Assembly: GCF_014490485.1 (NCBI RefSeq)
Contig: NZ_JACTVA010000001.1
Location: 62,001-126,000 of the forward strand
Length of the DNA stretch: 64,000 nt
Direction of reading: 5' to 3'
DNA from: Teichococcus aerophilus
GTDB taxonomy: Bacteria; Pseudomonadota; Alphaproteobacteria; Acetobacterales; Acetobacteraceae
In this document: piece by piece, positions 6,988-60,850 of the stretch
Position numbering within the stretch: the stretch's first letter is position 1
Layout of the letters: each line of letters starts with the position of its first letter
Notes under the pieces: model-generated
The model's input: the letters and a program-made list of their open reading frames with translations, nothing else
Told to the model about the DNA's origin: nothing
The model's database searches: none
Translations under genes and position numbers: made by a program

Positions 6988-7021
6988 AAGCCTGACTCCA
7001 GTTGCCAGTGGCGTCGCCGTT

Positions 7022-11301: not shown

Positions 11302-11362
11302 GTCTCGTCGGCCCGTTCGTGGTTCCGCATGGGCGTAGCAGAGGCGGGCCGGCCTGTGGAGG

Positions 11363-13054
11363 TCAGGGGGCTTCCAGCGCCTCGATCGCAAGTCGCAGCG
11401 CATGGGCGGCGCGGTTGCTGGCCTGCAACGCGCTGACACGGCGGAACGGCGCCTCCGCCGTGCCTGCGGCATCCGCCAGGTGGCGCAGGGGCTGCAGGCT
11501 GGGCCAGGGGTGTTGCTCCAACGCCGGGTCGTGGCGGAAGCGGTCACCCTGCGTGTAATCCAGCGGCACCAGGGCGCGGGAGGCGCGCATCAACGCCGCG
11601 TTGAAACGGGACAGTTCCATGGCTCCGGCCGCGCTCGAGGCCAGTGCGGCAGCGGCATGCTCCAGAGCGTCGGTACGCTTCAGGAGCAGGGAGATATCGA
11701 GCAGATCCCCCAGCCGCGCCTGCAAGGATTGCAATTCGCCGCGCATCGCCCTGGCATGGTCCGCGTAATCCAGCGGCAGCAGCGGTGCCGTCAGCAGACG
11801 CCAGACGACATGCACGAAGACGCGCGTGTCCCGTGCCAGCCGCTCCGGGTCGATCTTGTCCAGCGTATCGGACGCCGTATGCCACCACCAGCCCAGGGCC
11901 ATATGGGCTTGCGGGTCCGTGCCTTCTGGCCGCGCATGCCGGCTCAGGCTGTTGAAAATGGCAGGGATGCCGATGCCCCAGAAGCTCTGGTCGCCATTGC
12001 GGCCCGAGCGGACGCGCGCATAGTCCTGCCTGGCCTGGGCCGAAACGGCTTCCGCCGCCAGTGCCCACAGTTCCGACCCCGCGCCGGAATGGGCGAGGTC
12101 GTCAGCGCCGCGGCCGCCGGTGGAATCGGTGTTCACATGCGCGACGCAGCGGCGGTCCAACTCGTCCCAATACGCGTCGGCATACCAGGCGGAGCCGGAA
12201 TAGCGGCCCTGGGAATGGCCGGACCAAAAGCAGAAGCGCAGGCCACGCTGCCATTCGCCGCGCCGCCCGGCGCAGAGACGCGCCACTTCCATCATGGTGG
12301 CGTTGGCGGCGCCATTGTCCATCACGCCCTGATGCCATGTGTCGTGATGGCCGGAGAACATCACGAAGGGAGCTTCCCCGCCTGCATCGGGACCGTCCAG
12401 CTCCGCGACCAGGAGAGGGGTTTCGCGCCAGCCGGTATCGACCTCGGCGAAGAGGGTGGCGTCCAGCGGGCCGCCTGCCCGAAGCCTGTCTCGCAGCGCC
12501 AGCCCGGCCTGCCGCTCCACCGTGACGGCGACGGTCGTCGGCAGATGCGCCCTCGTAACGTCCGAAGGGCTGCCCCAGACGGGGGAGATGCACATCTCGT
12601 GCAACTGGTCGTCGGGCGAGATGTGGAGCTGCCCAGCGGCACCGGCGCGGTTGGCCCGGGCCGTGGTGGCGGGCGTCGCCATCCCTTCGATCAGCACAAT
12701 CTTGCCGCGCACATCCTGCCCGGCGAAATCCGCCGGCCGCCCCGTGCCGAGATCGGCCAGCGGCGCCGTCAGCCCGTCCGGGCCGGAGGAGAGGGAGAAG
12801 GAGTGGGTGATGCAGGGCAGCGCCATGCCGCCGGCCGTGACGCGCGCGGCACCGGGCAGGCTGATATAGGCGGGGTGGTGCAGCACGGTGGTGCGGTAGC
12901 CGAAGCTCTGCATCCGTGCTTCGACGAAGCGCAGGCTTTCCAGTTCTTCCGGCGTGCCCGCCAGCTTCACGCGCTCTGCCATGACGCCGAGGTTCCGCAT
13001 CATCTCATCGGCGGAGACGGCTGAGGTCAGCTCGCACAGGCTGGCATGGGTCAC
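11363..13054 (-). CDS. M28-like metallopeptidase-fold protein, second paralogue (altered active site)
   Basis: 563 residues, same layout as the gene at 7022 but clearly diverged. PA-type insert about 75-200, M28 fold about 215-400, helical tail to the end. Seen are His236 (SGHHDTW), Asp246 (GVMDN), Asp310 (HVNTD) and His392 (WHTASDT). The usual Glu-Glu pair is His280-Ser281 in SGHSQGRYSGSAWY, so both the general base and one metal ligand are missing by simple alignment. No signal peptide is seen. The gene precedes the IclR gene on the same strand and carries the same upstream palindrome as the SBP operon. Possible roles are an atypical amidohydrolase or a binding or regulatory paralogue. Confidence 0.8.
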   Translation of the reverse strand: MTHASLCELTSAVSADEMMRNLGVMAERVKLAGTPEELESLRFVEARMQSFGYRTTVLHHPAYISLPGAARVTAGGMALPCITHSFSLSSGPDGLTAPLADLGTGRPADFAGQDVRGKIVLIEGMATPATTARANRAGAAGQLHISPDDQLHEMCISPVWGSPSDVTRAHLPTTVAVTVERQAGLALRDRLRAGGPLDATLFAEVDTGWRETPLLVAELDGPDAGGEAPFVMFSGHHDTWHQGVMDNGAANATMMEVARLCAGRRGEWQRGLRFCFWSGHSQGRYSGSAWYADAYWDELDRRCVAHVNTDSTGGRGADDLAHSGAGSELWALAAEAVSAQARQDYARVRSGRNGDQSFWGIGIPAIFNSLSRHARPEGTDPQAHMALGWWWHTASDTLDKIDPERLARDTRVFVHVVWRLLTAPLLPLDYADHARAMRGELQSLQARLGDLLDISLLLKRTDALEHAAAALASSAAGAMELSRFNAALMRASRALVPLDYTQGDRFRHDPALEQHPWPSLQPLRHLADAAGTAEAPFRRVSALQASNRAAHALRLAIEALEAP

Positions 13055-13103
13055 AGGAAGCCTCAGTCTTGACGGCCTCTACTGTCGGCGGAAGTCTTCC
13101 CGG

Positions 13104-13128
13104 TGTCAATATTCTGAACCGTCGGTTC
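13104..13128 (-). promoter_or_regulatory. Candidate promoter -35 and IclR operator, site 2, for the second M28-like gene
   Basis: On the minus strand a TTGACA box (13109-13104) lies about 50 bases before the start codon at 13054; its -10 partner is weak. Just upstream is GAACC-GTC-GGTTC (13116-13128), the same palindrome core as at 10357-10369. The operator lies upstream of the -35, which would suit activation rather than blocking. Confidence 0.55.
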
Positions 13129-13133
13129 TCTGT

Positions 13134-13766
13134 GCGATCCTGCGCGCGACGCTTAAGACGGCACTCCGGTCGAAGGGTCACTCGATCAACCATGGCGTGC
13201 CGCAGGCGGTGATCGACGGCGCCCTCGCCGCAGCCAGGCAATTCCATGACCAGCCGCTGGAGAAGAAGCTGGAATTGCGGATCAATACGCATAACCTCGG
13301 CTACCTGCCCATGCGTGGCAACACGATCCGCCATTCCGGCCTGAACAAGAACAACATGGAGGAGAATGAGTTCGGCCTAGCCCCGCATACCGACACCGGC
13401 TTCATGACCCTGTTGGCGCAGAACGATGTGCCGGGGCTGAACATCGGCACGCGGGATGGGCGTTGGATTGACGCGCCGGCCATTCCCGGCACCTTCATCG
13501 TCAACGGCGGAGACATGCTGCGGCGCTGGACGAATGACCGCTTCCTGGCCACACCGCACCGGGTGATCAACCGCTCGGGGAAGGAGCGATATTCCATTCC
13601 GTTGTTCTTCGACACGACGCTGGATGACCCGATGTCCTGCCTGCCCAATTGCAGCAGCCCGGATAATCCGCTGCGTTATGAGCCGATCACGCTCATGCAA
13701 TACATGCTGTGGCACCAGAAGAAGAACCTGGATGCCCTGGCGGCGGCCGATACGCCTGGCCGGTGA
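13134..13766 (+). pseudogene. Truncated, internally deleted Fe(II)/2-oxoglutarate oxygenase (isopenicillin N synthase family)
   Basis: The frame contains recognisable pieces of an IPNS-like dioxygenase of usually about 330 residues: NHGVPQAVIDGALAAARQF, then the iron site HTD in APHTDTGFM and the second His with RxS in ATPHRVINRSGKERYSIP. The N-terminus is degraded: the expected GFFxxxNHGVP reads SKGHSINHGVP with no plausible start. The link KNNMEENEFG (near 13347-13365) joins two regions normally separated by roughly 70-100 residues, including core strands and helices. The metal ligands survive but the fold should not. The gene is divergent from the second M28-like gene and may once have belonged to that module. 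Confidence 0.75.
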
Positions 13767-15720: not shown

Positions 15721-18009
15721 TCAGGCGGGGGAGAGCCGCTGCGTGGTCGTCGCCGTTTGCCCGATCGCGGCCCAGTCGTAGCGCATCGGCACCATGCGGC
15801 AGGCTGCCCACTCACTGGCCTGGTCTGTGTAGTGCGGGCTGCCCGGTTGGCCGGACGCGCCGTGGAACACGGCCCAGCGGCAGTTCTCCCATCCACCGAC
15901 ATCGAAGACGTAGCGGCACAGCGCGCCATAGGTCGCGGCCGGGCCGGCGGTGGGGACAAGGCCGATCGCCATCACCGTATCGCCATCGCCGCCCAGTGGC
16001 ATGGCGGGCGGGTCCAGCAGCGCCGCCGCCTGCGGGAACAGCGGGGAGAGCGGGTGCTGGAAGGTGGGGCGGTGCATCTCGCCCCACGGGGTCGCGGGCG
16101 CTGCGGCGGTTTCTTCCAGCGCCGCCCGCAGCACGTCGTCCCAGCTCCAGCCATCCAGCATGGCGGCGTCGTCGTTCCGCAGCAGGGTCGGCAGCACCCA
16201 CCACAAATTCCCGACCGCCGAGATGCCGGGCGGCACCGCCGCCCAGGCATGCGCGGTCAGGCCTAGCAGGCCGGAGCGGCGGGCCAGGATCGCGGTCATC
16301 GCCCGGCGCAGCGTGTTGTAGCGCCCGGCGCCGACGGAGTTCGCTTCCATCCTGCGGTCCCAGGCCAGCAGCTCCTCGCGCAGCGAGGCCGCACGCGGGT
16401 CGGGCGGGGTGGCCAGCGCGCGCAGCCGGGCCTGGAACAGCGCGGCGTTGGGCGACAGCGCGTCGGCGTGGATGGCGGCGGCGTCCTCCACCCCGAAGCG
16501 CGGCAGGGCGTCCAGCAACTCGGCGATGCGGGCTGCGCGGTAGGGCGGGTGGCAATCGGTGCAGAGATACGGCTCGGCATCCGCGACGACGCGGTTATTG
16601 GCGGTGACGATGGTGCCGCCGGCGGGGTCGATCACTTCCGGCATGGCCTCGTGCGGGATGTAGCCGTCCCACTCGCCCTCGCCGGTCCAGCCCGGAACGG
16701 CGAACCAGCCATTGGCGCGGGGGCGGAGCGGCACCATGGCGCGCACGCGGTGGCCGATGCGGCCTTCCACGTCGCCGGCGACCAGATTGTGGTCGATTAG
16801 CCCCCAGCCCCGCGTCGCCTCGAACAGCTCGGGCACGCTGGTGGCGCGTAGCATGCGGGGCAGGCAGTCGAAGGACAGGTCCGTATCGGCGAACTGGACG
16901 GAGCGCAGCACCAGCGCGGCGCCGGAAGCCGGGTCCCCGGCCACGACCGGGCCGTGGCGGGTCTCCTGGATCGTGACGACGCGGTCGGCCCCGCCACGCA
17001 CATGGATGGTCTCGGTGCGGCTGCGCACGGGCTCACGGCCGTCGCGGAACAGGCAGTCGCCATCCTCGAAGCGTTCCAGGAACAGGTCGTGGATATCGAC
17101 GAAGGCGTGCGTCACGCAGCAGGCGACGCGCGCATTGTGCATGAAATGCGGGAAGGCGGGCACGCCCGGCACGGTCAGGCCGACCGCGTCCCACTCGTCG
17201 CAGGCCAAGTGGTGTTGCGTGTACATGCCAGGAATCTCGAACACCCGGTGCGGGTCGCCGGCCAGGATCGGCCGCCCGGTGGCGCTGCGGCCGGGGCCGA
17301 CGGCCCAGTTGTTGCTGCCGCCGCCCGTCTCGTCCGAACCCATGGCACCGAGCAGCGCCTCGATCGCCGGGCGGAGCGCGGCGAGGTCGGCCGCCATGCG
17401 GGCCCCCGTGGCACCGGGCGGGATGCAGAGCAGTTCGTTCTCGCCATCGTCGTAGCGCAGCTTGGCCGCGTTCTCGGCGCCCACCAGCGGCAGGGCCAGG
17501 ATGCGCGCCAGCTTGAACCAGACGGAGCCCATCAGCAGGCCCAACCGGCGCATCACCGCAATGGGGTGCCAGCCCTCCCACGGTTCCGGCGTGGCGCCGA
17601 GCAATGCGTACTCGACCGGAAGCGGCGGCTGGGCGCCGAGAAAGGCATTCACGCCCTCCGCATAGCGGTCGAGCATCGTCCGCGCCTCGTCGCCCAGGGC
17701 GGCGTAGTCGCGCCGGCAGGCGGCCTCCATGCCCAGGCGGCGGCACAGCGCGTCGCTGCCGGCCGCCTCCGCGCCGAGCCACTCGGCCGCCCGGCCCAGG
17801 GCGCGGCGGCGGGTCAGCTCCATCTGAAAGAGCCTGTCCTGCGCATGCACGAAGCCGAGCGCGAAATGCGCGTCCGCCGCCGTGCGGGCCTTGATGTGCG
17901 GGATGCCCCATTCGTCCCGCTGCACCGTGACGTCGTCCCGCAAGCCGGGAAGCATCTGCGTGCCACGGGTGTCGGAGAGCGCGGCGCGCAGCGTGGTGTC
18001 GTCGATCAT
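15721..18009 (-). CDS. Penicillin-acylase-family N-terminal-nucleophile amide hydrolase
   Basis: 762 residues. Members cleave side-chain amides (penicillins, N-acyl homoserine lactones, N-acyl amino acids) after self-cleavage into alpha and beta chains. The alpha part has VQRDEWGIPHIKARTAADAHFALGF near residues 29-53. The new beta N-terminus is Ser232 in GGGSNNWAVGPG, followed by ILAGDPH near 247-255, the canonical signature. Unlike many relatives, no signal peptide is visible from the start at 18009, which is coupled by TGATG to the SBP stop upstream; a longer start would add residues without a signal. So it is probably cytoplasmic and acts on imported amides delivered by that SBP. Substrate unknown. 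Confidence 0.87.
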   Translation of the reverse strand: MIDDTTLRAALSDTRGTQMLPGLRDDVTVQRDEWGIPHIKARTAADAHFALGFVHAQDRLFQMELTRRRALGRAAEWLGAEAAGSDALCRRLGMEAACRRDYAALGDEARTMLDRYAEGVNAFLGAQPPLPVEYALLGATPEPWEGWHPIAVMRRLGLLMGSVWFKLARILALPLVGAENAAKLRYDDGENELLCIPPGATGARMAADLAALRPAIEALLGAMGSDETGGGSNNWAVGPGRSATGRPILAGDPHRVFEIPGMYTQHHLACDEWDAVGLTVPGVPAFPHFMHNARVACCVTHAFVDIHDLFLERFEDGDCLFRDGREPVRSRTETIHVRGGADRVVTIQETRHGPVVAGDPASGAALVLRSVQFADTDLSFDCLPRMLRATSVPELFEATRGWGLIDHNLVAGDVEGRIGHRVRAMVPLRPRANGWFAVPGWTGEGEWDGYIPHEAMPEVIDPAGGTIVTANNRVVADAEPYLCTDCHPPYRAARIAELLDALPRFGVEDAAAIHADALSPNAALFQARLRALATPPDPRAASLREELLAWDRRMEANSVGAGRYNTLRRAMTAILARRSGLLGLTAHAWAAVPPGISAVGNLWWVLPTLLRNDDAAMLDGWSWDDVLRAALEETAAAPATPWGEMHRPTFQHPLSPLFPQAAALLDPPAMPLGGDGDTVMAIGLVPTAGPAATYGALCRYVFDVGGWENCRWAVFHGASGQPGSPHYTDQASEWAACRMVPMRYDWAAIGQTATTTQRLSPA

Positions 18010-19592
18010 CAGGCGTTCCCCAGCCGCACGCCCCAGAAGATGGGGTAGGAGGATGCCACCAGCCCTTGCAGCCGCGTGCGGTAGCCGGCCGGGCGGGAGA
18101 ACTGGCCCCACATCACCGAGGGCGTGGTGCGATAGGCATCTTCCTGGATGGCGGCGGCGATGCGCGCGCGGGCCGCGTCATCCGGCGCGGCGGCGAACTG
18201 GGTCAGCAGGGCGGACATCGGCTCGCTGCAGCTCCAGCCAGGGTAGTCGCCGCAATTGTTGGAGATGTAGAAATGGGTGAGCGGGGAGGCCATGTCGACG
18301 CCGTTGGAATAGACCGGGAAGATGCTCCAGCCCTCCTTCCGGCCCCGGCGCTGCAGGACCGTGCCCCAGTCCATCACCTGTTCGTCCACGGTGAAGCCGG
18401 CTTCGCGCATCCGCTGCGCCAGCATGCTGCCCGCCGCCTGGGAGATCGAGGCCGAGACCTGCAGCATCACCACCGGCTCGCCCTTGTAGCCGGTGCGGGC
18501 AAGGGCGGCCTTGCCGGCGGCGGGGTCGAAGGTGGCGGCCGCGGCGCCGGCATTGCTGCCCAGCGGGGCGTCGCACATGAAGAAGGCGGCGCAATGGTCC
18601 ATCCGCAGATCCGGCGCGATGCCGGCGGCCTGCAGCATCTCCTTCTGGTCCACCAGTTGCCACAGCACGGCGCGCACCGCCGGGTCTGCGAAGGGTCCGC
18701 TGGCGGCATTCACGCGGAAATTGCCCTGGAACATGTCCAGGCCCTTCAGCGTCATCACCTTCACGCCCTGCGAGCGCGCCAGCATCGGCACCAGGTCGAA
18801 GGGCAGGTACTGCATGTAGTCGATCTCGCCGGCGACCAGGGCATTGGCGCCGGTGGTGTCGTCGCCGATGGTCCGCAGCACCACCTCCGGCACCTGCACC
18901 GTCTTGCCGCCGGAGAGGAAGTCGGACGGTTCCGGCCGGGGCACGTAGCCGGCGAACCGCGCCAGCACCATGCTGTCGCCCACCCGCCAGCGGTCGGCGG
19001 CGAAGCGGAACGGGCCGGAGCCGATGACCTCCTTGATCCGCCCATCCCCCGCCGCGGCGGCCACGCGCGCCGGCATGATGGCCGGCAGCGGCGCGTTGGG
19101 CTTGCCCAGCACGTTGAGCATCAGCGGGAAGGGCTTGGTCAGCGTGATGGTGAACACGCGCTCGCCCTGCGCCGCCATGGTGGCGCCGGCGGCCAGCAGC
19201 ATGCGGCCCAGCGAGTCCCGCGGCGCCCACCGGGCCAGGGAGGCGATGCAATCCGCCGCCGTGACCGGCGTATCGTCATGGAAGCGCAGGCCGGGGCGCA
19301 GGGTGAACTGCCAGCGCAACTGGTCGGCGGAGACTTCCTGCGTCTCGACCATCTGCGGATGGATCTGCCCTTTGGCATCGCTGCCGTAGAGCATGTCGAA
19401 CACATGGTAGGCGAAGGTCCGCGTGATGGCGGCGGTGGTCATGTGCGGGTCGAGGATGACGACCTCGGATTCCAGCATGACGGTGAGTGGCTTCTGCTGG
19501 GCCGCCGCCGGGCGGGGCAGAAGTGCCGCCGGGAATGCGAGGGCGGTCATGCCGGCCAGAACGCCCCGCCTCGATGCCGTGATGGTGCTCAT
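18009..19592 (-). CDS. Family-5 solute-binding protein, Tat-like class
   Basis: 527 residues starting at 19592, where GGAGGGG lies just upstream. The N-terminus MSTITASRRGVLAGMTALAF has a Tat-like SRRGVLA core and ends RPAAAQQ. Mature features shared with the other Tat-type SBPs are LESEVVILDPHMTTAAI, FAYHVFDMLYGSDA, FHDDTPVTAADCIAS, IGSGPFRFAADR and the ending SSYPIFWGVRLG. The next gene on the strand is the penicillin-acylase-like hydrolase (1-bp overlap), so the receptor and the hydrolase form one transcript. The divergent amidase gene is 120 bp away, with a GATAT-N5-ATATC palindrome between them that probably binds the GntR protein. No transporter membrane genes are nearby. Confidence 0.88.
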   Translation of the reverse strand: MSTITASRRGVLAGMTALAFPAALLPRPAAAQQKPLTVMLESEVVILDPHMTTAAITRTFAYHVFDMLYGSDAKGQIHPQMVETQEVSADQLRWQFTLRPGLRFHDDTPVTAADCIASLARWAPRDSLGRMLLAAGATMAAQGERVFTITLTKPFPLMLNVLGKPNAPLPAIMPARVAAAAGDGRIKEVIGSGPFRFAADRWRVGDSMVLARFAGYVPRPEPSDFLSGGKTVQVPEVVLRTIGDDTTGANALVAGEIDYMQYLPFDLVPMLARSQGVKVMTLKGLDMFQGNFRVNAASGPFADPAVRAVLWQLVDQKEMLQAAGIAPDLRMDHCAAFFMCDAPLGSNAGAAAATFDPAAGKAALARTGYKGEPVVMLQVSASISQAAGSMLAQRMREAGFTVDEQVMDWGTVLQRRGRKEGWSIFPVYSNGVDMASPLTHFYISNNCGDYPGWSCSEPMSALLTQFAAAPDDAARARIAAAIQEDAYRTTPSVMWGQFSRPAGYRTRLQGLVASSYPIFWGVRLGNA

Positions 19593-53081: not shown

Positions 53082-53696
53082 TCATGCCTTCATGCTGAAC
53101 CAGAGCATTCTTCCAGTCTCCCGGCCGGGATTGTCGAACATGTAGGGCATGGTTCCCGGGAACAGGAAACTATCGCCGGGTTCGAGACTATGCGGGGACT
53201 GATCCAGCCACAGCCTGATTCGTCCCGCCAGGATGTAGCCCGCCTTCCAGCCTTCATGGGTCAGGAAGTCCGAGCCGGATGAACCGTCCGGGGAAATCGT
53301 CAACTCGTACATCTCGACCGACCCGGCGTCCTTGGGCGAGAGCAGTTCCTTGAGCACGCCGCTCGACGTCAGGCGCAGGAAATGACGTTCGCCGCGCCGG
53401 ACGATGTGGGGGTTGGGCGCCTGCACCGGCTCCGGGTCGAAAAAATGCGAAATCGGCACTAGCAGCGCCTGACTCATCAGCCGCAGGGACCTGACGGAGG
53501 GGGTGGTGAGGCCACGCTCCAGCTGGCTGACCATGCCGTTGGACAGGCCGGTACGGCGGCTCAGCTCCTGGATGGACATGTTCCTGCTGAGCCGGATGGC
53601 ACGGATGCACTCGCCAAGGCGGCGGTCGCTGTCGCGCCCGTCGTCGAACTCGGCCGTGCCTGGTGAATCAACTCCATCCGACGGTCCTGCCACCAA
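53082..53696 (-). CDS. XRE-family regulator with C-terminal cupin domain
   Basis: 204 residues. HTH about 28-85 (LGECIRAIRLSRNMSIQELSRR, TGLSNGMVSQLERGLTTPSV) and cupin about 115-200 (GYILAGRIRLWLDQSPHSLEPGDSFLFPG). This SinR/PuuR-like layout is common in regulators of amine and amino-acid catabolism; the cupin part senses the ligand. It is divergent from the Bug, RidA, SBP, GGT and oxidase operon, matching PuuR-like control of gamma-glutamyl or polyamine pathways. An exact 12-bp palindrome in the shared 149-bp gap could be its operator. Confidence 0.88.
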   Translation of the reverse strand: MVAGPSDGVDSPGTAEFDDGRDSDRRLGECIRAIRLSRNMSIQELSRRTGLSNGMVSQLERGLTTPSVRSLRLMSQALLVPISHFFDPEPVQAPNPHIVRRGERHFLRLTSSGVLKELLSPKDAGSVEMYELTISPDGSSGSDFLTHEGWKAGYILAGRIRLWLDQSPHSLEPGDSFLFPGTMPYMFDNPGRETGRMLWFSMKA

Positions 53697-53730: not shown

Positions 53731-53742
53731 CGTGATATCACG
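53731..53742. promoter_or_regulatory. Candidate XRE-cupin operator (CGTGATATCACG)
   Basis: Perfect 12-bp palindrome, 35-46 bases from the XRE-cupin start and about 104 bases upstream of the divergent Bug SBP start. The length and symmetry suit an XRE dimer. Confidence 0.5.
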
Positions 53743-53845: not shown

Positions 53846-54916
53846 ATGGCGTGTATGCGCGAGTCCTCCGAGCCAGCGCTCCGGGATGAGGAAACGCTTC
53901 CGGGGAGTGCCGGAGCCCTGCACCGCCGTGCAGCGCCGGGCGCGGACCGGCGGCGGTTCCTGCTACTCTCCATGCTGGGCGTTGCGGGTATGCCCCGAGG
54001 GGCTCTGTCCCAAACCACCCGCAGCCTGACCAAGCTGATCGTTCCCTACGGGGCCGGCAATATCACCGATCAGGTCGCGCGGGTCTTCGTCGATGCCTTC
54101 GCGGCCCGCAGCGGCAAGCACCTTGTGGTCGATAACCAGCCTGGCGCGGGCGGCATGCTGGGTACCTACAACCTCATCCGCGGGCCAGCCGATGGCAGCA
54201 CGCTGGGCATGGTGTCCGTCGCCGCGCTGGCCATCGCGCCGCACGCCGCCAAGCAGGCCGTGCAGTACGACCCCTTTACCGACCTCGTTCCCGTGGCGGG
54301 CGTCTCGGTGTCCAGCGCCTTCCTGGCGGTCAATGCGTCGCTGCCGGTACGGACACTTGCGGAACTTGTGGCATATGCGCGGGCACGCCCGGCGAATGAT
54401 CCCCTATTCTATTGCTCGCCCGGCAATGCGACGGTGCCGCACCTGAATATCGAGACCTTGCGCCGGTCGCTGGATTTTCCGCTGCAGCATATTCCGTATC
54501 GCACCAGCGCCGCAGCCAATACCGACCTGCTGGCCGGCCGCGTTCAGGTGACGATGGATTCCGCCAGCATCACCGTGCCGCATATGAAAGCGGGCACCCT
54601 GCGCCCCATCGCCTTCAACAGTGTACGTCGCAGCGCCGATTTTCCGGACGTTCCCACGTTCCGCGAAGTCGCGCCGGACGTGCAACTACTCAACGCCTGG
54701 TCGGCGACCTTCTTTCCGAAGGGGACGTCGGCCGCAGTGACCCAGGCCGCCGCTGAGGAGATCCAGGCGACGGTCAATGATCCGCGCTTCGCCGACCTGC
54801 TGCCGCTGGGCGTCGCGCCGTTTCCGCTGGGCGCGACGCAGCTCACGGCACAGATTCGCCAGGACCACGAACGGCTCGGCAAGCTCATCGCCGCGATCGG
54901 CCTGACGCAGGACTGA
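53846..54916 (+). CDS. Bug/TctC-family solute-binding protein
   Basis: 356 residues, longer than its relatives because about 35 residues precede the twin-arginine core ADRRRFLLLSMLGVAG; the export signal is thus internal to a long n-region, and an inner start cannot be excluded. Mature motifs: LTKLIVPYGAGNITDQVARVFVDAF, NQPGAGGMLGTYNLIRG, IPYRTSAAANTDLLAGRVQVTMDS. The usual GGGTD loop reads GAGNITD. It is the first gene of an operon with RidA (23 bp gap), family-5 SBP, GGT and oxidase, divergent from the XRE-cupin gene. Confidence 0.87.
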   Translation: MACMRESSEPALRDEETLPGSAGALHRRAAPGADRRRFLLLSMLGVAGMPRGALSQTTRSLTKLIVPYGAGNITDQVARVFVDAFAARSGKHLVVDNQPGAGGMLGTYNLIRGPADGSTLGMVSVAALAIAPHAAKQAVQYDPFTDLVPVAGVSVSSAFLAVNASLPVRTLAELVAYARARPANDPLFYCSPGNATVPHLNIETLRRSLDFPLQHIPYRTSAAANTDLLAGRVQVTMDSASITVPHMKAGTLRPIAFNSVRRSADFPDVPTFREVAPDVQLLNAWSATFFPKGTSAAVTQAAAEEIQATVNDPRFADLLPLGVAPFPLGATQLTAQIRQDHERLGKLIAAIGLTQD

Positions 54917-54939
54917 ACCGGAAAAGAAAAGAGGAAGCC

Positions 54940-55335
54940 ATGGCCAGAGAGATCATCACCTCGGCGCGAGTGACGCCGATGCGTTCCGCGGTCAATCACG
55001 CGGTCAAGGCAGGTGGCTTTGTCTTCGTCACCGGCGTCACGCCGTTCAAGGGAAGTGAGCGGATGAAGGCCGAGATCGCGAAGGGCGATCTGGTCGCGCA
55101 GATCCATCAGGTCATGCAGAATATGCAGGCGATTTTGGCAGAAGCAGGCAGTTCGCTCGACCGCGCGGTGAAGATGAATGTCGCACTGACCGACATGACC
55201 CGCTACGCGGAATTCGACGCGACGTTCCGTACCTATTTCGATGAAGACAACTTCCCGGCGCGGCAGACCACGGAATCCGCCCGCCTGGCGCATCCGGATT
55301 TCCTGGTCTCCATCGACTGCATCGCCGAAGCCTGA
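54940..55335 (+). CDS. RidA-family enamine/imine deaminase
   Basis: 131 residues, full length, cytoplasmic. Rid proteins hydrolyse reactive enamines and imines to keto acids and ammonia. The conserved Arg is in FPARQTTESARLAHPDFLVSIDCIAE near residues 104-131 and the Glu of that segment matches the family; GGFVFVTGVTPF near 25-36 corresponds to the usual G-x-x-F-x-S-G loop. The gene is 11 bp before the SBP and in the same operon as an FAD oxidase, whose product would be an imine. This makes a direct link: oxidase produces, RidA clears. Confidence 0.88.
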   Translation: MAREIITSARVTPMRSAVNHAVKAGGFVFVTGVTPFKGSERMKAEIAKGDLVAQIHQVMQNMQAILAEAGSSLDRAVKMNVALTDMTRYAEFDATFRTYFDEDNFPARQTTESARLAHPDFLVSIDCIAEA

Positions 55336-55346
55336 GGATACCCATC

Positions 55347-56969
55347 ATGCACCGATTTCCAGGCTTCAGGGCGTTCTTCCTCGGCACGGCCCTGGGGGCC
55401 GGAATGCTGCTGCAGCCGGGTCCGGTGCAGGCGGCCTCGCCGCCCGGCACGCTGACGGTCGCGGTGGAGGCGCCTTTCGGGGTCGATCCGCATTTCCTCT
55501 TCGTTGGCCCCAACATGGCCGCAGCGCGCCAGATCTACGACAGCGTCATCAACCGCGATGCCGAGAGCCGCTTCATCCCCGGCCTGGTGCAATCCTGGGA
55601 AGCGACGGATGCCACCACTTGGGTGCTGAAGCTGCGCGAGGGCGTGCAGTTCCAGGACGGCAGCCCGTTCACGGCTGAGGATATCGCCTTCTCCATCGCC
55701 CGCGTGTCAGCGGTCCCGAATAATCCAGGTCCCTACATCTCCAATCTCCGTACCATTGCCGCGGTGGAGGTGGTTGATTCCCATACCGTCCGCATCAAGA
55801 CGGACCGGCCCAACCCGACGCTGATGGGCCAGCTGACCAATATCTTCGTCGTCTCCCATATCGCTGCGCGGGGAGATGGCTCGGCCGCCGGGTCCAGCAC
55901 CGCCGATTTCAACAGTGGCAAGGCCGCCATCGGCACCGGCCCCTTCCGGCTGGTGGCCCTGCATGGCTCGGAAGGCATGTCGCTCGTGCGCAACCCGACC
56001 TATTGGGGCGTCGCGCCGGGCTTTGAGAAGGTCGAGATCCGCGTCATCGGCAGCGATGCCTCCCGGCTCGCCGCCTTGCTCTCTGGCGATGTGGATGTGA
56101 TCGAGAGCGTGCCGCCCGGCGATGTCGCCCGGCTGGAGCGTGACAACCGCGTCAGCGTCTTCCGGCGCAACTCGGACCGGATCATGTTCCTGATCCCGCA
56201 TGTCGGCGCCGAGAGGTTGGCGATGCTGACGGACGCGGATGGCAAGCCGCTGCCCAATAACCCGCTGCGCGACGTGCGCGTGCGCCGGGCGCTATCCATG
56301 GCGCTGGACCGCACGGCTTTGGCCGAACGGGCACTGGACGGCCAGGCGGTGCCGACGGGGCAGATGGTGCCGCAGCAATTCGGCGCCTTCGACCCCAGCT
56401 TCATGCCCCCCGCCGCCGACCCTGAGGGTGCGCGCCGCCTGCTGGCAGAAGCCGGCTATCCGCGCGGGTTCGGCCTCACCGTCGGCTGTTCCAACAACCG
56501 CTTCGTCAATGATGCGCGCGTCTGCCAGGTGGTAGGTCAGATGTTCACCCGCGCCGGCTTCCAGGCGAAGGTGGAGACCATGCCGGGCAGTGTCTTCTTT
56601 CCCCGCACGGTCGAAGGCAGGAACGACTTTCCGGTCATGCTCTATGGCCTGTCGCTCTCATCCTCGCGCGATGCCAGCTATATCCTCTCCACGTCGGTGC
56701 ATTCTCGCAACGTGCGGGAAGCCTATGGCCAGGGCAATCGTGGCAGCTTCTCGCAGCCGGAGATGGACAGGGCCATCCAGGCCGCCGTGTCCTATTCCGG
56801 GCCGGACCGCGAAGACAGGCTGCGCCAAGTGATGCGGCGCGCGATCGACGAGGTGCCGATCATCCCGATGTATAATCAGGTCACCGTCGTCGCCGCCCGC
56901 AGGGGCGTGGTCTATGAACCGCGCATGGACGAACAACTGGTGGCGCAGAACGCGAGGCCGGCCCAATGA
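55347..56969 (+). CDS. Family-5 solute-binding protein, Sec-exported class
   Basis: 540 residues. Sec signal MHRFPGFRAFFLGTALGAGM, cut near GPVQAAS. Mature start LTVAVEAPFGVDPHFLFVGPN follows the Sec-type class. Motifs: LREGVQFQDGSPFTAEDIAFSIAR, AAIGTGPFRLVALHGSEG, LRDVRVRRALSMALDRTALAER. GAGGATA lies before the start. Its stop overlaps the GGT start (ATGA). In context it probably captures a gamma-glutamyl compound or glutathione-like peptide. Glutathione importers such as GsiB belong to this family, but the ligand here is inference. Confidence 0.88.
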   Translation: MHRFPGFRAFFLGTALGAGMLLQPGPVQAASPPGTLTVAVEAPFGVDPHFLFVGPNMAAARQIYDSVINRDAESRFIPGLVQSWEATDATTWVLKLREGVQFQDGSPFTAEDIAFSIARVSAVPNNPGPYISNLRTIAAVEVVDSHTVRIKTDRPNPTLMGQLTNIFVVSHIAARGDGSAAGSSTADFNSGKAAIGTGPFRLVALHGSEGMSLVRNPTYWGVAPGFEKVEIRVIGSDASRLAALLSGDVDVIESVPPGDVARLERDNRVSVFRRNSDRIMFLIPHVGAERLAMLTDADGKPLPNNPLRDVRVRRALSMALDRTALAERALDGQAVPTGQMVPQQFGAFDPSFMPPAADPEGARRLLAEAGYPRGFGLTVGCSNNRFVNDARVCQVVGQMFTRAGFQAKVETMPGSVFFPRTVEGRNDFPVMLYGLSLSSSRDASYILSTSVHSRNVREAYGQGNRGSFSQPEMDRAIQAAVSYSGPDREDRLRQVMRRAIDEVPIIPMYNQVTVVAARRGVVYEPRMDEQLVAQNARPAQ

Positions 56970-58672
56970 CCACGACCACCCGCCCCCTTGTCGGCGGCCC
57001 TCGGCACGCGATCAGCGCCGGGCATTACCTTGCATCCGCCGCCGGGCTCGCCATCCTGGAAGCCGGCGGCAATGCTATCGATGCCGGCGTCGCGGCCGGC
57101 CTCGTCCTGGGTGTCGTGCAGCCGGATATCGTAAATTTCGGCGGTGTCGCGCCTATTCTGATCCGCCGCGCTGATGGCCGTATCGAGAGCATCGCGGGCC
57201 TGGGCCACTGGCCGATGTCGCTGCCGCCGGACCTCTTCATGCGTGAGCATGGTGGCAAGATGCCCAAGGGCGTGCTGCGCACCGTGGTGCCGGCCGCGCC
57301 CGATGCCTGGATCACGGCGCTGCGCCGCCATGGCACCATGGGGTTCGCCGAAGTCGCCGAGGCCGCCATCCGTTTCGCCGCCGAAGGCTTCCCGGTGTAT
57401 CCCATGTTCGCCGAGAGCATCGAGCTGCACCGGAAGGACTATGCTTCCTGGCCATCCAACCGCCCGATCTTCCTGCCCGGCGGCAAGCCGCACCCGGTTG
57501 GTGCATTGTTCATCCAGTCCGACCTGGCGGCGTCCATCCGCTACATGGCGGATGAAGATCGCAGCGCCCGTGCCAAGGGCGGCCGTGAGGTCGGGCTGGA
57601 GGCCGCGCATTCTGCATTCTACCGGGGCGATATCGCGCAGAAGATCGTCGCCTTCATGCAACAGGAAGGCGGCTATCTCTCCGCCGAGGATCTCGCGAAT
57701 TTCCGCTCGCGGATCGAGCCGGCGGTCACGCGGGAGTGGCAGGGGCATCAGGTGACGACCTCCGGCCCCTGGTGCCAGGGCCCGGCCTTGTTGGAAGCGC
57801 TCCTGTTGATGGAGCAGGCCGGGTTCCAGGACATGGCGCATAACAGCGCCGACTACCTGCACCTCGTCGCCGAATGCCTGAAGGTCGCGATGGCGGATCG
57901 GGAATACCATTTCGGCGACCCCGCCTTCACGGATGTGCCGCTGGACGCGCTACTCGGCGCGTCGCATCTCGCCGCTCGCGTGGCGGAGATCGACCCGGCG
58001 CGCGCGCATGCTGGCATGCCCCCGCCGCGGCTGAACCGTGGCACCGGCCCGCACGACCCCAGCGAGCGGCTGGTCGCGGCCATCGAGCCTGACACTTCCT
58101 ATGTCGCGGTGGTGGATCGGGAGGGCAATGCCTTCTCCGCCACGCCCAGCGACGGCAGTTGGAACGTGCCGGTCATTCCTGGCCTTGGCTTCGTCGCCTC
58201 CGGCCGCGGGTCGCAGTCGCGCCCCGATCCGGCGCATCCCAGCGGCGTGCGGCCTGGTGGCCGGCCGCGGCTGACGCCCAACCCCGCCCTGGCGGTGACG
58301 CGGGAGGGCGCCATCATTCCCTTCGGCACGCCGGGTGGCGATGTCCAGATCCAGGCGATGATGCAGGTTCTGCTGAACCACCTGCATTTCGGCATGGACC
58401 TGCAGGAAGCGATCGAGGCGCCCCGCGTCGCCACCTACTCCTTCCCCTCCTCCTTCGCGCCCTACGACTACTTCCCGGCGCGGCTGGCGGTGGAGGCCCG
58501 CATCCCCGCCTCGGTCCGCGACGACCTGCGGGCCCGTGGCCACGACATCCAGGACTGGCCCGACTGGACCTACCTGGCCGGCAGTGTCGAGGCCGTGCGC
58601 TACGACCCGGTGACCGGGACGAAGATGGCCGGCGCCGACCCGCGCCGCCCTGCCTACGCCCTGGCGATGTAG
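56966..58672 (+). CDS. Gamma-glutamyltransferase / glutathione hydrolase family
   Basis: 568 residues. An Ntn hydrolase that matures by self-cleavage. The alpha part has ILEAGGNAIDAGVAAGLVLGVVQP near 30-53 and GVLRTVVPAAPDAW; nucleophile Thr377 is in EPDTSYVAVVDREGNAFS, followed by RPRLTPNPALAV and PFGTPGGDVQIQAM. Unlike secreted GGTs it shows no signal peptide, so cleavage probably happens in the cytoplasm after uptake. The canonical TTH(F/Y) reads DTSY. It overlaps the SBP gene and precedes the FAD oxidase by 25 bp. It should release glutamate and an amine or amino acid from a gamma-glutamyl donor, the latter being a fit substrate for the oxidase. Cephalosporin-acylase-like activity is an alternative. 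Confidence 0.88.
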   Translation: MTTTTRPLVGGPRHAISAGHYLASAAGLAILEAGGNAIDAGVAAGLVLGVVQPDIVNFGGVAPILIRRADGRIESIAGLGHWPMSLPPDLFMREHGGKMPKGVLRTVVPAAPDAWITALRRHGTMGFAEVAEAAIRFAAEGFPVYPMFAESIELHRKDYASWPSNRPIFLPGGKPHPVGALFIQSDLAASIRYMADEDRSARAKGGREVGLEAAHSAFYRGDIAQKIVAFMQQEGGYLSAEDLANFRSRIEPAVTREWQGHQVTTSGPWCQGPALLEALLLMEQAGFQDMAHNSADYLHLVAECLKVAMADREYHFGDPAFTDVPLDALLGASHLAARVAEIDPARAHAGMPPPRLNRGTGPHDPSERLVAAIEPDTSYVAVVDREGNAFSATPSDGSWNVPVIPGLGFVASGRGSQSRPDPAHPSGVRPGGRPRLTPNPALAVTREGAIIPFGTPGGDVQIQAMMQVLLNHLHFGMDLQEAIEAPRVATYSFPSSFAPYDYFPARLAVEARIPASVRDDLRARGHDIQDWPDWTYLAGSVEAVRYDPVTGTKMAGADPRRPAYALAM

Positions 58673-58697
58673 CCCGACTGACGAAGAGAGAAAGCAC

Positions 58698-60038
58698 ATG
58701 GCCCTTCCGCCGATTATGCCGGTGCAGAACGATGCCGCCCTTCCGGACGCTGTGGATGTCGCCGTTATCGGCGGCGGCATCGCGGGCGTTGCCGCCGCCT
58801 ACTATCTGGCCAAGGCGGGCCAGTCCGTCGCCGTGTTGGAGAAGGGTGTGATCGCCGGCGAGCAATCCAGCCGCAACTGGGGCTGGTGCCGCGTGCAGAA
58901 CCGCGACGAGCGGGAAATCCCGCTGATGCAGCGCAGCTTGGAACTGTGGGATGGGCTGCGCGCCGAGACCGGCGGCGATTACGGCTTCCGCCGCGACGGG
59001 CTGGTCTACGTCACCCGCTCCCAGGCTGATATGGACCGTTGGCAGGGCTGGGTCGACATGGCTCGCCAGTACCAGGTTCACAGCCGTATGCTGACGGCGC
59101 AGGAGGCCCGCGCCGCCACACCCGGCAATGACGGGGCCTGGATCGGCGGCGTCGCCTCGCCAACGGATGGGATGGCGGATCCCTTCATCGCGGTGCCGAC
59201 CCTGGCGAAGGCCGCGCGACGCGCCGGTGCCACCATTCACCAGCGTTGCGCCGTGCGAGGCCTGGATATGACCGCCGGCCGCGTCGCCGGCGTCATTACC
59301 GAGAAGGGGCGCATCCGTGCCGGCGCGGTGCTGCTGGCCGGCGGCGCCTGGTCCTCCATGATGCTACGGCGGCACGGCGTGGACCTGCCACAGGCCAGCA
59401 TCCGCTCCACCGTCTTCCTGACCCAGGAAGCCCCCAACGTAACGGCGGGTGGCATGAACACGCCCGAGATCACCATCAGCCGGCGGGAGAATGGTGGCTA
59501 CATCGTCGCTGCCAATAACCGCGGCCGGATCGAGCTGACGCCGGCCGGCCTCCGGCATGCCCGCAAGTTCTGGCCGACGCTGGTGAGCCGCTGGAACAGC
59601 GTATCCTTCGGCATGGGAGCTTCCTTTTTCCGTGGGCCGGACGCGCATATGGGGCGGTGGTCCTTCGACCGGCCAACGCTGTTCGAGGCAGAGGACATGC
59701 GCATCCTCGACCCGAAGCCGAGCCAGGGCGTGGAGGAGCCCGCTCTGGCGCAGCTCGCCCGTTCCTGGCCCGCGCTGGCGGGGACGCGGGCGCAGGCCAC
59801 CTGGGGGGGATGGATCGATTCCACACCAGACGCCGTGCCGGTAATCGCGCCGATCGATGCCTTGCCGGGCCTGTTCCTCTCCACCGGCTTCAGCGGGCAC
59901 GGCTTCGGCATCGGGCCAGGGGCGGGCAGGCTGGCGGCGGACCTGATCCTCGGCGTTTCGCCCATCGTCGCGCCGGAGGAGTTTCGCCTGGACCGGCTCA
60001 TCGATGGATCGCCGATCCGGCAGCCCGGCATGATTTGA
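58698..60038 (+). CDS. FAD-dependent amine/amino-acid oxidase, DAO family
   Basis: 446 residues. FAD motif DVAVIGGGIAGVAAAYYLAKAG near 16-37, SRNWGWCRVQNRDEREIPLM near 58-77, substrate/FAD stretch GMNTPEITISRRENGGYIVAANNRG, and the late ATWGGWIDSTPDAVPVIAP with GLFLSTGFSGHGFGIGPGAG. The pattern matches the glycine/D-amino-acid oxidase group including gamma-glutamylputrescine oxidase-like enzymes. It produces an imine plus hydrogen peroxide, or reduces quinone. Last gene of the operon, ending with a hairpin. RidA in the same operon would hydrolyse its product. Confidence 0.87.
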   Translation: MALPPIMPVQNDAALPDAVDVAVIGGGIAGVAAAYYLAKAGQSVAVLEKGVIAGEQSSRNWGWCRVQNRDEREIPLMQRSLELWDGLRAETGGDYGFRRDGLVYVTRSQADMDRWQGWVDMARQYQVHSRMLTAQEARAATPGNDGAWIGGVASPTDGMADPFIAVPTLAKAARRAGATIHQRCAVRGLDMTAGRVAGVITEKGRIRAGAVLLAGGAWSSMMLRRHGVDLPQASIRSTVFLTQEAPNVTAGGMNTPEITISRRENGGYIVAANNRGRIELTPAGLRHARKFWPTLVSRWNSVSFGMGASFFRGPDAHMGRWSFDRPTLFEAEDMRILDPKPSQGVEEPALAQLARSWPALAGTRAQATWGGWIDSTPDAVPVIAPIDALPGLFLSTGFSGHGFGIGPGAGRLAADLILGVSPIVAPEEFRLDRLIDGSPIRQPGMI

Positions 60039-60118: not shown

Positions 60119-60850
60119 CTACTGAGCGCCCGCCTGCATCGCCGCCTTGGCCAGCGTGCGGATGCCGGCCCAGTCCCTGTCCTGGATGCTCTGCCGTGGT
60201 GCCATGAAGACGCCGCCGGCGGCGAAGACATTGGGCAGGCCGAGATACTCGCGCAGGTTGGCGGTGGAGACGCCGCCGGTGGGGCAGAAGCGGATATCGG
60301 GAAACAGCGGCTGCATGTGGCGCAGCCAGGCGGGGCCGCCATGCAACTCGGCCGGGAAGAACTTCAGTTCCAGGAAGCCGTGCTCGCGGGCCGCCAGGAC
60401 CTCGCCCGGCGTCACGGCGCCGGGGATGAAGGGGAGCCTGACCTCCTGCGCGGCCTGCGCCAGGGCGGGCGTGAAGCCGGGGCTGACCAGGAAGCGGGCG
60501 CCGGCATCCCGGGCGGCGGTGAAATGCGCCGGGCGGGTCAGCGTGCCGGCGCCAATGACGGCGCGGGTGGCGCGCTGGCACATGGCCTCGATCACCGGCA
60601 AGGCCTGCGGCGTGCGCAGCGTCACCTCGATGGCGGGAATGCCGGCATCTTCCAACGCATCCAGCAGCGGCGCGGCATCTTCCAGCCGGTCCACCTGCAG
60701 GATGGCGATGAGCGGCGTGCTGTGCTGCAGCAACGCGCTTACCGAAGGCTGGGGCGGTGACGTTTCCTGAGTCTGATCTTGCAGCACGGGCTGATCCTGG
60801 CTGAGAGAGGGCGATGAGGAGACGCTGGCATCAAACAGCGCCTCCGTCAC
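60119..60850 (-). CDS. KDPG/KHG aldolase-family protein
   Basis: 243 residues: a TIM barrel with an extra N-terminal tail of about 45 residues that is Ser/Gln rich and unlike the family (usual length about 210). Class I aldolase residues are present: Glu75 in IPAIEVTLRTPQAL and Schiff-base Lys163 in LELKFFPAE, with GAGTL near 101, FLVSPGFTP, IPGAVTPGEVL and CPTGGV near 189. It splits 2-keto-3-deoxy-6-phosphogluconate or 4-hydroxy-2-oxoglutarate into pyruvate plus an aldehyde. No Entner-Doudoroff partners are nearby; it lies 28 bp below a Tat-type SBP gene, so it may serve a special 2-keto-3-deoxy acid. Confidence 0.87.
   Translation of the reverse strand: MTEALFDASVSSSPSLSQDQPVLQDQTQETSPPQPSVSALLQHSTPLIAILQVDRLEDAAPLLDALEDAGIPAIEVTLRTPQALPVIEAMCQRATRAVIGAGTLTRPAHFTAARDAGARFLVSPGFTPALAQAAQEVRLPFIPGAVTPGEVLAAREHGFLELKFFPAELHGGPAWLRHMQPLFPDIRFCPTGGVSTANLREYLGLPNVFAAGGVFMAPRQSIQDRDWAGIRTLAKAAMQAGAQ

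Follow-up and report, generated by a model that had tools for sequence, protein, structure and literature searches.

A receptor-linked gene cluster of Teichococcus aerophilus encodes a gamma-glutamyltranspeptidase-fold hydrolase that seems to have lost its glutamyl recognition pocket

Results

The window analyzed in this work is a 64,000-nucleotide stretch of a Teichococcus aerophilus contig, and within it a five-gene cluster next to a divergent regulator gene, reported at 53846-60038, was confirmed to be present (Table 1). The genes encode a TctC/Bug-type periplasmic receptor, a Rid-family protein, a second periplasmic receptor of the SBP_bac_5 family (SBP5), an N-terminal-nucleophile (Ntn) hydrolase with the gamma-glutamyltranspeptidase (GGT) fold, and a DAO-family flavoenzyme. 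The hydrolase, called the window enzyme below, resembles GGT, yet its aligned residues indicate that it seems to have lost the gamma-glutamyl recognition pocket. With middling confidence, we read the cluster as an operon for the import and breakdown of a small compound, amide or peptide-like in nature, on which the hydrolase, probably nonglutamyl in specificity, would act first and the flavoenzyme and Rid protein afterwards.

A preliminary description of this DNA had placed a Bug receptor, RidA, an SBP5 receptor, GGT, and a FAD oxidase in one operon linked to uptake. All five genes were found there, separated in order by 23 bases, 11 bases, a 4-base ATGA overlap (SBP5/GGT), and 25 bases, so that no gap exceeds 25 bases. 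Given these short gaps and the shared strand, the five genes are likely to be cotranscribed as a single operon. The link to uptake is supported.

Table 1. Features of the gene cluster and its regulator (window coordinates; protein families by Pfam, with E values as given)
Feature	Coordinates	Strand	Family match or remark
TctC/Bug periplasmic receptor	53846-54916	+	Pfam TctC, 2.1e-48
Rid-family protein	54940-55335	+	Pfam Ribonuc_L-PSP, 2e-24
SBP5 periplasmic receptor	55347-56969	+	Pfam SBP_bac_5, 6.3e-81
GGT-fold Ntn hydrolase	56966-58672	+	Pfam G_glu_transpept (PF01019), 3.2e-103
DAO-family flavoenzyme	58698-60038	+	Pfam DAO, 2.9e-72
XRE-cupin regulator, divergent	53082-53696	-	Pfam HTH_3 + Cupin_2
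Palindrome CGTGATATCACG (12 bases, perfect), in the gap that separates regulator from operon	53731-53742		Operator role unsupported

Active-site residues and location of the hydrolase

Residues were mapped from an alignment to Bacillus licheniformis GGT together with a 47-row family alignment, which comprised the window enzyme and 46 of the 47 neighborhoods from the family-genome search (L075 gave no gene call). In Escherichia coli GGT, the glutamyl carboxylate is bound by Arg114, Ser462, and Ser463, the amino group is held by Asn411, Gln430, and Asp433, and the oxyanion hole is formed by Gly483-Gly484 (PMC6769717, PMC8062742). The predicted nucleophile of the window enzyme, Thr377, and the first oxyanion glycine, Gly457, are invariant in all 47 rows, and the second oxyanion glycine is kept in the window enzyme and replaced in some rows (e.g., L076, L085, and L087). 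The glutamyl ligands are replaced: the position of Arg114 is occupied by Leu79 (Leu or Val across the clade), the Asn411/Glu position by Asp396/Gly397, the Gln430/Glu position by Arg414, that of Asp433 by Gln417, and that of Ser462-Ser463 by Leu436-Thr437. As Arg414, Gln417, and Thr437 are conserved in 46 of the 47 rows, what is seen looks like the exchange of the glutamyl pocket for a different conserved pocket rather than decay. The autoprocessing site is predicted at Asp376-Thr377 in the window enzyme; the Asp is not invariant in the clade, with Gly-Thr found in L076.

Against the NCBIfam model TIGR00066, the window enzyme scored 267.2 bits, under the curated cutoff of 357.85. Of the features expected of a gamma-glutamyltransferase (EC 2.3.2.2), it has the nucleophile threonine and the pair of oxyanion glycines and lacks the glutamyl ligands and a score above the cutoff. 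Substitution of the carboxylate-binding arginine is severe in characterized enzymes, as E. coli GGT R114L had no detectable activity and B. licheniformis GGT R109L retained 5% hydrolysis (PMC8062742).

The absence of a signal peptide from GGT, claimed in the preliminary description, held up. The conserved fold of the window enzyme starts approximately 13 residues after the start codon, and in 35 of the 47 rows, this one included, the motif begins 11 to 21 residues in, with no convincing signal peptide apparent without use of a dedicated predictor. The remaining 12 rows count neither for nor against a signal peptide, owing to faulty open reading frames (ORFs), a gap, or the motif itself: six are overlong ORF calls (L050, L061, L063, L065, L068, and L070), an assembly gap runs through L073, and the motif pattern was unmatched or the start was called late in five (L069, L081, L083, L084, and L086). 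An apparent SBP5-GGT fusion of 1,090 amino acids in L073, which would have implied a periplasmic GGT, was rejected as an artifact of a run-of-N assembly gap with a frameshift; the GGT there carries its own ATG. The window enzyme is thus probably cytoplasmic.

Relatives of the hydrolase within and beyond the genome

Ten matches to PF01019 were identified in the T. aerophilus genome, two of which are fragments of the same frame on contig 67. Paralog L097 retains the motifs RETAP, NNELTDF, and RSSMSP, aligns to B. licheniformis GGT with a score of 340 bits, and has an N terminus that appears signal-like by eye; by these motifs, it is a canonical GGT elsewhere in the same genome. A second paralog, L094, scores 630 bits to the protein of PDB entry 6j3a. 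This chain holds the sequence TCHLDVVDRW, the reported start of the small subunit of LmbA (PMC5519988), and was therefore identified, tentatively, with LmbA or a close homolog of it; the open-license literature yielded no paper that mentions entry 6J3A. For the window enzyme itself, the score is 266 bits with 6j3a, 171.5 bits with B. licheniformis GGT, and 55 and 52 bits with the two subunits of 5hft, which we take to be HpxW.

A tree of 27 rows was built with LmbA itself left out, its stand-ins being L094 and five similar rows. The window enzyme fell in a clade of 15 rows (support, 99/99) that is sister to, and not inside, the LmbA-like clade (6 rows), and the two together were split with support of 100/100 from six other GGTs of the same genome, one of which (L096) sits on a long branch. 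The LmbA-like paralog in loci L090, L091, L094 (the T. aerophilus copy), and L095 adjoins an apparent phosphonate C-P lyase operon, with PhnI, PhnJ, and DUF1045 confirmed by Pfam in L090 only.

Matches to the window enzyme were found in 198 of 200 family genomes (E value, 0.001), and among the matches listed, 64 besides the window share at least 45% identity with it; the clade is frequent in Acetobacteraceae. Among plasmids, 81 records matched at an E value of 1e-60, and no GGT relative was found in a scan of viral contigs, which covers close relatives only.

Genomic neighborhoods of the clade

The neighborhoods of 54 relatives were compared, comprising 47 of the 64 listed matches (L041 to L087) and seven from a genus search (L193 to L199). 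In 20 of the 54, as in the window, GGT is immediately preceded by a receptor gene of the same strand at a distance of less than 300 bases (SBP5 in 16 and TctC in 4), making SBP5 the most common upstream partner of the clade. The recurrent core is receptor plus GGT only. Four plasmid-borne relatives were inspected: one from Sulfitobacter (46% identity) adjoins a tripartite tricarboxylate transporter set, one from Neorhizobium (42%) lies ahead of a sugar ABC transporter, one from Roseomonas marmotae follows an SBP5 gene, and one from Pseudoroseomonas cervicalis (41%) is near a divergent TctC gene. What recurs is the proximity of a hydrolase to an uptake receptor, the class of which varies. No paper joining gamma-glutamyltransferase, Roseomonas, and substrate-binding protein was found in the open-license literature.

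Two neighborhoods held further genes. In L041, whose GGT is 89% identical to that of the window, apparent 5-oxoprolinase genes (PxpABC, judged by eye) lie at 11321-13724, convergent to SBP5-GGT. In L053 (genome G016), downstream of the GGT ortholog come genes of AtzH-like, GntR, amidase, and allophanate-hydrolase C-domain type (5772-8796), a set that recalls hpxWXYZ/atz ureide clusters. A small neighbor of some GGT relatives (L088, L089, L209, and L212) is annotated as a GAF-domain protein in plasmid records; the similar-looking one in L088 gave no hit to Pfam at an E value of 1e-4.

The tree and the L053 neighborhood raise the question of whether the window enzyme, like HpxW or LmbA, acts by way of an oxalyl-Thr intermediate, its substrate being oxamate-like, an N-oxalyl compound, or an alpha-keto compound. 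The window clade and the LmbA-like clade share GPWxQGP, ATPS, Arg414, Arg435, and Thr437; LmbA and Ant6 release oxalate (PMC5519988), HpxW converts oxamate to oxalate and ammonium (PMC5270733), and the genes beside the L053 ortholog are reminiscent of hpxWXYZ. However, the clade departs from eight LmbA-like alignment rows at the clade-conserved Asp396, Gln417, and Ala464, and the AtzH context occurs in one locus only. We regard an oxalyl-type hydrolase as unlikely and treat the idea as a lead, not a result.

Receptors and permeases

The SBP5 receptor of the cluster matches the GsiB glutathione receptor model, but at a low score (123.6 bits, compared with a cutoff of 594). The preliminary description had called the module self-contained, which was not sustained, as no match to BPD_transp_1 (PF00528) or TctA (PF01970) was identified in the window, in a search that did not extend to ATPases. 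The nearest BPD_transp_1 matches lie 7.7 kb past the right end of the window, beside another SBP5 gene and a paralog of the flavoenzyme (49% identity). Across the genome there are 103 SBP_bac_5 and 138 BPD_transp_1 matches, with 67 of the 103 lying more than 5 kb from any BPD_transp_1 permease (uncorrected for contig ends), and 75 TctC matches compared with 4 for TctA, none of the latter on this contig. The genome thus shows a very large expansion of both receptor families, and the window alone has eight SBP5 matches (across 3336-62465). At 15721-19592, a penicillin-amidase-family Ntn hydrolase gene stands beside another SBP5 gene, so that receptor and hydrolase are again paired although the hydrolase is not of the GGT family.

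The flavoenzyme and the Rid protein

An AlphaFold2 model of the flavoenzyme, built from 28 sequences, had a pLDDT of 88.2 and a pTM of 0.92. Using Foldseek, the top matches were found to be the Proteus L-amino acid deaminases 5hxw and 5fjm (TM score to the query, 0.89 to 0.90, over the whole chain), with the beta subunit of sarcosine oxidase as the next family (approximately 0.76). The predicted likeness is thus one of whole-chain fold; sequence identity to the Proteus enzymes is 27 to 29%, active-site residues differ, and the N-terminal membrane helix is missing, as residues 1 to 17 of the model are coil followed by a Rossmann strand.

The Rid protein keeps the catalytic arginine (Arg105 of RidA), within the motif PARQT, in the window and in the two other loci carrying close homologs (L187 and L192). 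Where RidA has Glu120, these have Ser or Ala (Ser in the window), and the score to TIGR00004 was 79.9 bits, under the cutoff of 106.25. In Salmonella enterica RidA, little changed when the equivalent Glu was substituted, and the same source describes Rid genes adjacent to those for FAD amine oxidases and, with imine assays, Rid hydrolysis of imines from amino acid oxidase (PMC4433059). The window pairs a catalytic-Arg Rid with a flavin amine oxidase family gene in the same way, differing from the clusters described in that source in the missing usual Glu and the score under the TIGR00004 cutoff. Given the deaminase-like predicted fold and the retained Arg, deamination by the flavoenzyme followed by imine hydrolysis by Rid is plausible. 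The two proteins fit the amine oxidation and imine hydrolysis of the earlier proposal.

Orthologs of the Rid protein are rare, being found in 2 of 200 family genomes, including T. aerophilus, and in 1 of 385 class genomes, again its own; no relative was found among plasmids at an E value of 1e-25. A TctC-Rid pair in a different genus (L192, 8858-10253, genome G168) is 95% identical in Rid and 73% in TctC to that of the window and was perhaps transferred recently.

Partial and rearranged versions of the operon

Homologs of all five proteins were found together in one other locus, L187, a Roseomonas metagenome contig (identities: TctC, 57%; Rid, 75%; GGT, 70%; SBP5, 61%; and flavoenzyme, 61%). 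They lie within 6.2 kb in an order and orientation unlike those of the window, and this is the sole locus with a GGT among 49 found with the flavoenzyme query. In G168, the TctC-Rid pair is on another contig than SBP5-GGT (L044). A DAO gene was present within 4.5 kb of GGT in 3 of the 54 neighborhoods (four genes in L053, L059, and L197), one in each case directly upstream of SBP5. The arrangement is the same in L059 and L197, where the DAO gene, from another subfamily, is accompanied by a gene that resembles LysR by eye; further upstream, L197 carries a second DAO gene, 51% identical to the window flavoenzyme; the copy in L053 is truncated by the contig end.

The regulator gene behaves similarly. 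Its orthologs at an E value of 1e-40 were found in 3 of 200 family genomes, T. aerophilus counted. One ortholog (74% identity) holds the same position ahead of SBP5-GGT alone in L041 (genome G011); a relative (61%) heads SBP5 and a flavoenzyme (51%) without GGT in L204 (G016); and in L183 and L184, relatives (52 to 53%) precede similar-looking sets that run from SBP5 to flavoenzyme with transporter genes between and no GGT. Since the XRE gene, TctC-Rid, and the flavoenzyme recur in other combinations, the window operon looks assembled from an SBP5-GGT core plus these parts.

The regulator had been described as PuuR-like. It scores 55.9 bits to the PuuR model, which has a cutoff of 211, so the term can mean XRE-cupin and no more. 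The palindrome CGTGATATCACG, proposed as its operator, is the sole match in the window allowing up to one mismatch, yet 9 of 100 shuffles also yielded a match. It was not found in the intergenic stretches beside the four XRE relatives (L041, L204, L183, and L184), and a conserved, Puu-like operator was accordingly dropped.

Discussion

In the pathway that we infer, the TctC-type and SBP5-type receptors would capture the compound in the periplasm and pass it on to permeases whose genes lie elsewhere. Once the compound is in the cytoplasm, an acyl bond would be cleaved via an acyl-Thr intermediate by the GGT-fold Ntn hydrolase, self-activated between Asp376 and Thr377; the acyl group is probably not gamma-glutamyl. 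The released amino acid or amine would be converted to an imine by the L-amino-acid-deaminase-like flavoenzyme, and the Rid protein would turn the imine into an oxo acid and ammonia.

Several observations weigh against this pathway. A receptor gene directly upstream is lacking in 34 of the 54 GGT neighborhoods; one of these (L082) has an SBP5 gene directly downstream, and at least 14 adjoin apparent phosphate-uptake (pst) genes, as judged by eye. No Rid homolog occurs in any of the 54, the gene standing beside GGT only in the window and L187. At an E value of 1e-60, relatives of the flavoenzyme occur commonly, in 79 of 200 family genomes, and 48 of the 49 loci found with the flavoenzyme query, some on short contigs, show no GGT. 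As the density of DAO genes near GGT shows no clear excess over that of the far flanking DNA (2 genes in 439 kb), the link between GGT and the flavoenzyme is drawn only from their adjacent arrangements. The substrate residues of L-amino acid deaminase, which we take to be numbered Arg316 and Trp438, align to other residues in the flavoenzyme, the substrate-carboxylate Arg position falling on an Asn with an Arg two residues on. Relatives of the regulator also head GGT-free SBP5-flavoenzyme operons (L204, L183, and L184). Finally, GtGGT and PtGGT without the Arg, and GtGGT without the Ser-Ser pair, are still called GGTs (PMC8062742), so the loss of ligands is a strong argument but not proof.

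If the cluster is instead a loose assembly, SBP5-GGT, Bug-Rid, and the flavoenzyme would be three units with different substrates under one promoter. XRE-SBP5-GGT without the remaining genes in G011 (L041), the separate contigs of Bug-Rid and SBP5-GGT in G168, and the many flavoenzyme loci without GGT are consistent with this. It is nonetheless rather improbable, as L187 groups the five homologs within 6.2 kb in a different order despite the rarity of the Rid ortholog, and SBP5-GGT is immediately preceded by a DAO gene in L053, L059, and L197.

The reading given in the preliminary description, that imported gamma-glutamyl amines or peptides are cut by GGT to glutamate and an amine, which is oxidized to an imine and hydrolyzed, is very improbable: the enzyme matches PF01019 and, under the cutoff, TIGR00066, SBP5 matches the GsiB model far under its cutoff, and some thermophile GGTs without the Arg or the Ser-Ser pair still count as GGTs, but here both the carboxylate (Arg, Ser, and Ser) and the amino (Gln and Asp) ligands are replaced, several by clade-conserved residues, the Arg substitutions mentioned above nearly abolish activity, and a canonical GGT is encoded elsewhere in the genome. 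What survives of that description is an uptake-linked operon with a signal-less GGT fold, a flavoenzyme, and Rid, and not the gamma-glutamyl specificity, the self-contained character, the operator, or the resemblance to the Puu pathway. With the E. coli Puu pathway the window operon shares an XRE-cupin regulator and a FAD oxidase; it differs in having no ligase, aldehyde dehydrogenase, or PuuD-type hydrolase. No PuuA, PuuC, or PuuD family was present among the Pfam matches of the operon, the part of the genome that was searched, and the fold of PuuD differs from that of GGT.

The preferred reading, a catabolic operon acting on an imported amide or peptide-like compound, has partial parallels among other known systems. 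LmbA and Ant6 of 4-alkyl-proline biosynthesis (PMC5519988) belong to the sister clade, have an Asp-Thr processing site, and likewise miss the glutamyl ligands. The window enzyme differs from them at clade-conserved sites and stands in a catabolic-looking operon with receptors. HpxW, the oxamate amidohydrolase of hpxWXYZ, is a GGT-fold amidohydrolase often misannotated as ggt (PMC3560190). One ortholog of the window enzyme (L053) lies beside AtzH-like and amidase genes, whereas no hpxXYZ-type genes were identified by Pfam in the window operon; no paper joining gamma-glutamyltranspeptidase and oxamate amidohydrolase was found in the open-license literature. The ong cluster of Pseudoalteromonas (PMC9537276) combines transporters, an N-acyl amino-acid hydrolase, an amino acid deaminase, and a RidA protein. 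Its acylase is of another family (D-aminoacylase) with the known substrate GlcNAc1A, and in the passages cited, deamination is demonstrated and RidA is shown only to be needed in vivo (PMC9537276). A KDPG aldolase gene near the window operon (60119-60850, minus strand), which recalls the KDG of the ong pathway, was left out of the proposal because a homolog occurs in just one (L093, LmbA-like) of 60 fetched loci.

A broader proposal, speculative and in our view doubtful, is that the window clade consists of uptake-coupled GGT-fold amidohydrolases, sister to the C-C-cleaving LmbA group, that would remove an oxalyl or similarly short acyl moiety from amino acid derivatives after their import, and that a few strains have added an L-amino-acid-deaminase-like flavoenzyme and a dedicated Rid, so that an acyl-amino acid would be taken to an oxo acid without free imine. 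If true, the oxalyl reading would join two odd GGT relatives, LmbA and HpxW, by one chemistry. Close relatives of the window enzyme are annotated as gamma-glutamyltransferase, which predicts a glutathione-type metabolism that this enzyme probably does not perform. The pairing of receptor and hydrolase offers a direct route to the substrate of the clade, as the receptors can be screened for ligands.

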